Shown in pieces: positions 1,002 to 56,578 of a stretch of DNA of 64,000 nucleotides. The notes under the pieces were generated by a model. That model made no database searches. It saw only the letters and a list, made by a program, of their open reading frames with translations, and was not told the origin of the DNA. The stretch is from Ruficoccus amylovorans (GTDB lineage: Bacteria; Verrucomicrobiota; Verrucomicrobiia; Opitutales; Cerasicoccaceae). The position numbers and the translations under genes were made by a program. The DNA lies in the NCBI RefSeq assembly GCF_014230085.1, contig NZ_JACHVB010000020.1:248001-312000 (forward strand), given 5' to 3'. The first letter of the stretch is position 1, and every line of letters starts with the position of its first letter.

Positions 1002-1037
1002 TCATACCGTTTTTTAAAGAGTAGTTATGAGGTTTAT

Positions 1038-1289
1038 GCGAGAGGGCGTTTTTTGGAAAAAACACCCTCTCGCGCTCTCCCCAAAAAACTTTTAAGACGG
1101 AACTTCGTTCCTTCAGAAGGACGGCAAGCCTCAAGGTCCTCGCATAAGTGCTTGGGGCAACTCTCTTTAGATGCTCTCTGGGATTGCTGCTTTCAGCACT
1201 GCTGAAAGCAGCAATCCCAGACGCGATGCGGTAGCATCGAAAGTGCAGACTTCGTCTGCCGCAGGGTTTGGGGGCGCGGAGCCCCCAAA
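1038..1289 (+). repeat. Composite hairpin repeat, element A, copy 1
   Basis: This fills the 320-base gap between ilvD and the convergent flavoprotein gene. In order it holds: a hairpin with GCGAGAGGG arms and T6/A6 inner stem (1038-1073); a less conserved linker; a 19-bp stem with 3-base loop (1179-1219); a small GATGC/GCATC hairpin; a GCAGAC-TTC-GTCTGC hairpin (1245-1259); and a GGGGGC/GCCCCC hairpin ending near 1289. Near-identical copies occur at 42545-42805 (complete), 38539-38648 (distal half) and 18110-18190 (proximal part). All share the same orientation relative to the upstream gene. No ORF in it looks real. Confidence 0.9.
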
Positions 1290-1321
1290 ATATCTAGCAA
1301 GGACTCTGGGAAGGGAGGGCA

Positions 1322-18068: not shown

Positions 18069-18109
18069 CCTTGGCGTTTCGAGCGTTTTTAAGTAGATTT
18101 AAGGATTAT

Positions 18110-18190
18110 GCGAGAGGGTGTTTTTTGAAAAAAACACCCTCTCGCGCTTTCCCCTGAAAACTTTTGAAACGGAACGTTATTCCTTCGAGA
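18110..18190 (+). repeat. Composite hairpin repeat, element A, copy 2 (proximal part)
   Basis: A perfect hairpin (18110-18145) has arms GCGAGAGGGTG and CACCCTCTCGC around T6/A7. A short stretch matching the element A linker (CTTTTGAAACGGAAC...TTCC) follows. The distal hairpins of copies 1 and 3 are absent. It lies 41 bases after the purL stop and converges on the FGE gene, so it may end purL transcription. Confidence 0.8.
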
Positions 18191-18227
18191 GAATCGGTAC
18201 TATCTTCGCTTGCCGGTTGTCTGACCA

Positions 18228-18287
18228 CAGGTACTGGTCATTTTCTCTGTGTCCTCTGTGCCCTCTGTGGTTAATCCCAAAAACTGG
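18228..18287. repeat. Short direct repeats CTCTGTG(T/C)CC
   Basis: The motif CTCTGTGTCCTCTGTGCCCTCTGTGG repeats an 8-9-base CTCTGTGNC unit three times. A related CACAAGAAGCACAGA stretch lies in the inverted-repeat element at 56420. It is probably a remnant of a dispersed intergenic element. Confidence 0.5.
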
Positions 18288-38435: not shown

Positions 38436-38475
38436 GGCCACCACGGACTCGCTCCGTACGTTGTCCACGTAACCG

Positions 38476-38498
38476 AGTGTGCTGTTAGCTTAGTTTCG
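38476..38498. repeat. Solo copy of the element E terminal repeat
   Basis: AGTGTGCTGTTAGCTTAGTT resembles the terminal inverted repeat of the element at 56420-56578 (AGTGTCCCGTTAGCTTAGTT), differing at two or three positions. No matching partner was found near, so it looks like a remnant. Confidence 0.45.
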
Positions 38499-38538
38499 GG
38501 CATAAATTTGGGGATGCAACTCAGTTTGGATGCTCCTC

Positions 38539-38648
38539 TGGGATTACGGCTTTCAGTGAAACTGAAAGCCGTAATCCCAGACGCGATGCTGCAAGCATCG
38601 AAAGTGCAGCCTTCGGCTGCCGCGGGTGCGGGCTGCGTAAGCCCGCAA
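38539..38648 (+). repeat. Composite hairpin repeat, element A, copy 4 (distal half)
   Basis: This has the 19-bp stem with GAA loop (38539-38579), the GATGC/GCATC hairpin, GCAGCC-TTC-GGCTGC, and TGCGGGCT/AAGCCCGCA. Relative to copies 1 and 3, several stem pairs differ on both arms so that pairing is kept. The first GCGAGAGGG hairpin is missing. It lies 3' of a plus-strand gene and converges on the permease gene. Confidence 0.88.
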
Positions 38649-38666
38649 AATTAAAGCGAACATGCT

Positions 38667-42479: not shown

Positions 42480-42544
42480 TCGCAACATCCGGTTGCGCCC
42501 TGCCGCCGCAACGGATACCGAATCGAAATAGCTGTGAGGGTTAT

Positions 42545-42805
42545 GCGAGAGGTTTTTTTTTGAAAAAAACACCCTCTCGCGCTCTCTCCAAAAAACTTTT
42601 GAGGCGGAACTTCGTTCCTTCGCAAGAACGGTAAGCGTCAAACCCGGCGGGAAGTGCCCATAAGTTTTAGAGGTAACTCAGTTTGGATGCTCCTCTGGGA
42701 TTGCTGCTTTCAGCGACGCTGAAAGCAGCAATCCCAGACGCGATGCGGCAGCATCGAAAGTGCAGGCTTCGCCTGCCGCAGGGTTTGGGGGCGCGGAGCC
42801 CCCAA
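42545..42805 (+). repeat. Composite hairpin repeat, element A, copy 3 (complete)
   Basis: The order is as in copy 1: GCGAGAGG...CCCTCTCGC hairpin (42545-42580), linker, 19-bp stem with GAC loop (42696-42736), GATGC/GCATC, GCAGGC-TTC-GCCTGC and GGGGGC/GCCCCC (ending about 42805). The linker ACTTTTGAGGCGGAACTTCGTTCCTTCG matches copy 1. It fills the 335-base gap between the ClpX-like gene and the convergent 105-residue gene; no gene is present. Confidence 0.9.
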
Positions 42806-42814
42806 GAGAGAATC

Positions 42815-56419: not shown

Positions 56420-56578
56420 CTCTAGTGTCGTGTTAGCTAAGTTCTTAACAAATGTTAATGGCCACAAAAAGGCACAAGAAGCACAGAAAACTTCGTGGAT
56501 ACAGAGTTCGCTCTGCGTCTTTGCGCCTCTGCGGTGAAAATATTTTTATCAGGAACTAAGCTAACGGGACACTAGAGC
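56420..56578. repeat. MITE-like element E with 26-base terminal inverted repeats
   Basis: The ends GCTCTAGTGTCGTGTTAGCTAAGTTC (56420-56445) and its near reverse complement (56553-56578) enclose 107 bases of non-coding DNA with CACAAGAAGCACAG repeats. A solo end is at 38476-38498. With element D it fills most of the 571-base gap before ileS. The remaining 56579-56839 shows no gene, T-box or other riboswitch. Confidence 0.75.

Follow-up and report, generated by a model that had tools for sequence, protein, structure and literature searches.

The small interspersed repeats BOX and RUP are modular in build. REP and BIME repeats are repetitive extragenic palindromes of the GTAG/CGTC type (PMC3733652, PMC2817692); one study reports a strong enrichment of them in the verrucomicrobium O. 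terrae and also cites how frequent GT pairing is in the stems of REPs (PMC3733652). Palindromes are also the substrate of a mutation process, template switching, for which homogenisation of the arms and inversion of spacers (PMC8604942) as well as compensatory changes (PMC8794818) have been reported. In rRNA, a compensatory change together with an inversion of the loop was found to be extremely rare (PMC8794818).

Here we describe hundreds of short multi-hairpin DNA repeats that lie just 3' of stop codons in one small group of Verrucomicrobiota. The starting point was a window of 64,000 nucleotides from Ruficoccus amylovorans (contig NZ_JACHVB010000020.1, positions 248,001 to 312,000), in which a first-pass annotation had described the hairpins at 1038-1289 as a composite element in four copies.

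Results

The hairpins at 1038-1289 belong to two separate families, modules A and B, which share some convergent gene gaps; both are non-coding interspersed multi-hairpin repeats that occupy such 3'-3' gaps. The single composite unit had to be given up, because A and B lie mostly at different places in the genome and adjoin, among the places listed, at only three, which share a single contig. The four copies, at 1038, 18110, 38539 and 42545, can all be read directly in the sequence (the second being A only, the third B only and the fourth A plus B), but far more than four exist. Further copies had been predicted, and DNA searches of the organism's own genome (4.5 Mb in 64 contigs) found about 38 of module A. 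A covariance model of module B, built from 33 copies, matched 76 times in the own genome, at least 135 and at least 130 times in two congeners, 36 times in a third, 15 times in another genus of the family and 0-2 times in the other five genomes of that family searched, numbers that come from 150 candidates scored per genome, include cross-hits of the palindromes on the opposite strand and are not exact copy numbers.

Module A is about 125-155 bp long and runs from directly 3' of a stop codon through a long T/A-centred hairpin, whose arm variants occur in other copies, and a GGAAC hairpin. Its features in the window are:

1004..1130, + strand: module A copy 1, starting directly after the TAG stop of the gene that ends at 1001
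1038..1073, + strand: long hairpin GCGAGAGGGCGTTTTTT/AAAAAACACCCTCTCGC, an inverted repeat with 17-nt arms
1099..1111, + strand: small hairpin GGAAC-TTC-GTTCC, read directly in the sequence
18083..18205, + strand: module A copy 2, with its hairpin at 18110-18145
42508..42640, + strand: module A copy 4, with its hairpin at 42545-42581

A few copies in relatives keep the outer GCGAGA/TCTCGC and the tail GCTCTTCCCAAAAAACTTT, with a stem that is quite different yet paired. An autonomous element with module A ends was considered and rejected: matches to the end pattern lay at copies of module A, and none of those listed formed a matched pair about 1 kb apart. Copy 2 is adjoined, at 18245-18275, by a CTCTGTGTCCTCTGTGCCCTCTGTGG repeat that resembles the cargo of a short MITE.

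Module B consists, in this order, of CCAGTTTYGATGC, a palindrome of about 20 bp, the hairpin CGATGC..GCATCG, a hairpin GCAGNC..GNCTGC and a GC-rich terminal hairpin. In the window it is represented by:

1158..1295, + strand: module B copy 1, core by covariance model R1 (143.9 bits)
1177..1221, + strand: long palindrome with perfect arms of 22 nt, free in sequence among copies and almost always Watson-Crick paired
1224..1239, + strand: conserved hairpin CGATGC-GGTA-GCATCG
1245..1259, + strand: small hairpin GCAGAC-TTC-GTCTGC, its middle pair being G-C, C-G or A-T among copies
1260..1286, + strand: terminal module, with the hairpin GGGGGC-GCGGA-GCCCCC at 1270-1286
1260-1262, + strand: CGC that can pair with the loop GCG at 1276-1278, a probable pseudoknot
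38475..38506, + strand: left remnant of an IS630-type terminal repeat (GAGTGTGCTGTTAGCTTAGTT...) at module B copy 3 (C20:286475-286495, 2 mismatches)
38517..38654, + strand: module B copy 3 (covariance model, 130.6 bits)
42674..42812, + strand: module B copy 4 (covariance model, 150.6 bits)

All four copies of the window do lie in convergent gaps, as initially described, and most of their neighbours are supported by Pfam matches: IlvD/EDD (+) and a pyridine-nucleotide oxidoreductase (-) at copy 1, AIRS/PurL-like (+) and FGE-sulfatase (-) at copy 2, an unknown gene (+) and an ArsP permease (-) at copy 3, and AAA/ClpX-like (+) and an ORF without a family (-) at copy 4. The predicted position at convergent gene ends extends to module A as a family, with 26 of 30 copies in convergent gaps and all but one of the 30 behind a same-strand gene that points into the left end; in most of them this left end coincides with the stop codon or lies within about 20 nt of it. 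It also extends to module B in the congener G001 (40 loci), where 28 of the 45 full copies are in convergent gaps according to a home-made gene caller, which missed the FGE-sulfatase gene beside copy 2, so that the context counts are approximate. The end modules of B mostly face the stop codon of an opposite-strand gene (105 of 130, most within 1-62 nt), and in G001 the left part of many gaps opens with an end module of this kind in inverted orientation. When considered as intrinsic terminators, the bases 3' of the terminal hairpin of module B are A-rich with no T-run, and by inspection module A shows no GC-rich hairpin with a directly following T-run. At the G001 loci L247 and L258, hairpins with T-runs that resemble terminators stand directly before the element or hairpin module, and some elements may have been inserted behind terminators in this way. 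Further recurring hairpin modules were seen in the G001 gaps L241, L259, L262 and L265, for example GGCATTTTCAGGAGAAAATGCC, and elsewhere as GATGGGGCT..GCCCCATCGCTCACTGCGTTCGCTGCCCC.

A wide distribution of the repeats was rejected, since the end-module pattern had any match in only 9 of 373 genomes of the order. It was abundant in the four genomes of the genus only; G005 had two matches, and elsewhere there were scattered matches with two mismatches. The module A pattern was found in 5 of the 373, all of the same family, and the records named by an exact-pattern scan are Verrucomicrobiota MAGs. The repeats are confined to one bacterial family. A search of Rfam matched only tRNAs in the window and none of the elements, and across six element loci gave one match that fell below its own gathering score; a known Rfam structured RNA was rejected on these searches. 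The statement that no named family has this layout thus holds for Rfam, but in kind the repeats resemble BIME/REP and IS630-type MITE repeats.

The first-pass annotation had placed three compensated changes of the long stem between copies 1 and 4. Such changes exist, but they separate copies 1 and 4 from copy 3; the arms of copies 1 and 4 are identical, and only the loop differs. By contrast, its reading of the small TTC-loop hairpin, whose fifth pair is A-T in copy 1, C-G in copy 3 and G-C in copy 4, was accurate, as was that of the last hairpin, which is altered on both arms in copy 3. Covariation above controls, which had been predicted, was found in the alignment of 33 B copies: 97.8% of the cells are paired, which falls to 31-40% once the 3' partners are slid by 1-3 columns, and 180 cells show double changes as compared to a shuffle mean of 55, with none of 500 shuffles reaching 180.

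In the stem of about 20 bp, the 119 distinct cores of module B contain 2439 Watson-Crick pairs, 5 G-T, 3 A-C and 19 other combinations (2012, 7, 3 and 17 in a first set of 99 copies), a paired share that is raised by the choice of cores for a strong Watson-Crick palindrome. Less directly dependent on this choice are the freedom of the arm sequence, with 85 distinct left arms among 99 copies, and the low frequency of G-T as compared to other changes, at 0.2% of the long-stem pairs. Copies that differ at 1-5 stem positions display 3382 double and 230 single changes, and the 712 paired changes between the closest copies comprise 310 of transition type, 214 flips and 188 of transversion type, such that 402 have no route through G-U; these comparisons reuse copies and are not phylogenetically independent, and the counts are descriptive.

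The three-base loops occur in both orientations. With rising arm distance, 28, 39 and 112 loop pairs were reverse complements of each other and 33, 39 and 118 were identical, whereas at the same distances the controls gave 4, 8 and 23 pairs that were reversed only and 5, 5 and 19 that were complemented only, about five times fewer; these counts, too, reuse copies and are descriptive. The reverse-complement pairs numbered 213 in the data and on average 93, at most 127, in shuffles. Inversion also concerns a whole element: an element of about 300 bp at locus L242 of G001 matches the reverse complement of its counterpart at L281 of G002 at 238 of 302 positions, each is the best match of the other, and the genes on both sides are orthologs. 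The element is inverted in place between the two species, the sole well-supported case. A second inverted pair, L258 and L292, is not a best match and may represent replacement rather than inversion.

Orthologous gaps often hold elements in two species. Among 16 such element pairs, 3 were mutual best matches and 1 was best in one direction; orthologous elements are thus often not closest relatives, which points to high turnover. Ectopic recombination might swap palindromes between copies, in which case the paired differences would be moved modules. The mosaic intergenic regions, which carry different modules at orthologous sites, fit this explanation, as do the middles of some orthologous copies, which are closer to other copies. 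However, with so many distinct left arms, matching donors are few; even where the middles of orthologous elements are similar, many paired positions in their stems differ; and exchange alone gives no loop inversion. We therefore hold it to be quite improbable as the source of the paired changes.

In the end module of B, the base after the small hairpin covaries with a base of the terminal-hairpin loop, with 44 T-A, 62 C-G and 4 exceptions (2 T-G and 2 C-A; Fisher p 9e-26), and both states, T-A and C-G, occur in all four genomes of the genus and among the main types of stem. Together with the terminal hairpin, this cross-hairpin pair probably forms an H-type pseudoknot. Simple arm copying does not explain the pair, and the folded strand is thus probably under selection at least there. 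At the inner pair of the terminal hairpin, 14 modules have T-G and no module has C-A (strand as given). This asymmetry, the cross-hairpin covariation and the 3' location at stop codons speak for selection on RNA, in which the repeats would be 3'-UTR or termination structures, broken hairpins would be costly and compensatory changes would be fixed one by one. Against it, G-T makes up 0.2% of the long stem, and more than half of the close paired changes have no G-U route; furthermore, the loops are freely inverted, the orientation of elements at orthologous loci is not fixed, and the terminal hairpin is followed by A-rich sequence instead of a T-run. RNA selection may act on the end module, but it is less able to explain the long stem, and as a general explanation we consider it unlikely.

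The earlier proposal that structure and not sequence is maintained is borne out for the long stem, where a mutation bias at the DNA level is favoured by the near-absence of G-T, the many flips and transversions, the free inversion of loops and the inversion of an element in place; RNA as the selected molecule finds no support. It might be asked whether a dedicated recombinase inverts or moves the elements at their folded end modules. The inverted end modules at both ends, the covarying cross-hairpin pair and the one in-place inversion would suit such an enzyme, but our search, which was for Y1 alone, linked no such gene to the elements, and homologous recombination or template switching can bring about inversion without such an enzyme; we regard this idea as highly improbable.

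Module B of the own genome is in part associated with IS630-type ends. The terminal inverted repeat-like ends TAGTGTG..AGCTAAGTT gave 82 matches in this genome and a reversed control gave none; such ends flank not only full B copies but also a short MITE that carries a CACAGAGG-type repeat, as well as two IS elements:

L151 257-1354: full IS630-family element with a transposase of 365 aa
L152 280-1359: full IS630-family element with a transposase of 359 aa

The ORFs of both elements match DDE_3 and HTH (DDE_3 E 4e-21 and 6e-22). Several B copies of this genome are about 210 bp long, with ends of the TAGTGTG(C/G)CGT(G/T)AGCTAAGTT type next to CTAG, a tetranucleotide present at many such ends, and these copies look like MITEs. 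By inspection, most B copies in G001 and G002 are without terminal repeats, so that the capture of B by an IS looks secondary, and the structured core is more than just an IS with a deletion. The window contains at 56423-56574 another MITE, of about 150 bp, with IS630-type ends like those of module B (C20:304423, C20:304554); it is of the size class that carries a CACAGAGGCGCAAAGACGCAGAG-type repeat elsewhere in the genome.

Alternatively, a Y1 (RAYT) transposase might recognise single-stranded hairpins, as in a REP/REPIN-like system, with selection keeping the hairpins perfect in single-stranded DNA. As in such systems, the repeats are palindromic and present in many copies, their end modules form inverted pairs, and they have the 3' location reported for REPs (PMC3733652). 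However, a search for Y1_Tnp (PF01797) had no match in G000, G001 and G003, whereas the same search detected it in six other genomes of the family (G004, G005, G007, G008, G009 and, more weakly, G002) and in 5 of 14 controls, and by inspection the hairpin ends have no GTAG or CGTC tag. Since three of the four genomes of the genus gave no match to a Y1 transposase, we rejected a RAYT/REP system as a candidate and consider a mechanism of this kind very unlikely.

Discussion

Template switching between inverted repeats in DNA fits the data better than RNA selection, given that pairing is almost entirely Watson-Crick although the sequence is free, that the G-U route is little used, that loops are inverted and that one element is inverted as well. 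In the reading that we prefer, and to which we would give a probability of roughly 60%, switching between the arms in DNA replication or repair would keep the palindromes perfect, in that a mutation in one arm would be transferred to the other arm, often with inversion of the loop or spacer. The end module, with its cross-hairpin pair and GCATCGAAAGTGCAG, would be under a constraint of both sequence and structure, as a recognition site or a 3'-end structure, and in the own genome an IS630-type transposase would have spread the B copies in trans. The paired changes are deduced from differences between copies, not seen as events, and ready-made palindromes could move by exchange between copies. 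Going further, one might imagine that the folded elements invert at nested scales, from the loop to the whole element, by way of the inverted pseudoknot-bearing end modules, such that the elements 3' of many stop codons would constantly change in orientation and stem sequence, which might affect convergent gene ends; this is a speculative extension, and an unlikely one.

Compensatory changes are usually taken as a sign of RNA function. The dense paired changes seen here, with almost no G-U and freely inverted loops, in up to more than 100 copies per genome, are a warning that covariation in palindromic repeats can arise from DNA copying alone. The repeats also form a natural collection, of considerable size, in which template-switch mutation accompanied by loop inversion can be measured, while the cross-hairpin pair marks a place where structural constraint probably persists.

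How do these families compare to described repeats? They are a novel form of BIME/REP/MITE-like repeats, in which both the mechanism and a role at 3' ends are putative. In common with REP and BIME repeats, they are high-copy intergenic palindromes with inverted pairs and mosaic arrays, located mostly between convergent or same-direction genes and often touching stop codons, so that here, too, many intergenic copies are found preferentially 3' of genes. They differ in that their units are 140-300 bp long, with several hairpins and a probable pseudoknot, as compared to the palindrome of 20-40 bp of a REP, in that no GTAG/CGTC tag was seen on inspection of the listed copies, in the absence of a Y1 transposase from three of the four genus genomes, and in that G-T pairs are almost absent. 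With IS630/Tc1-mariner MITEs they have in common that several B copies of the own genome share terminal repeats with full DDE_3 IS elements, whereas most B copies of G001 and G002 do not carry those repeats. As small interspersed repeats they can be likened in general description to BOX and RUP of pneumococcus (PMC3049150). Finally, template-switch (quasipalindrome) mutation leads one to expect that both members of a pair change at once, that arms become homogenised and that loops or spacers are inverted (PMC8794818, PMC8604942, PMC7202029), although it is a mutation process and not a family. In comparison to template switching in rRNA, both loop orientations are present here throughout a dispersed repeat family.
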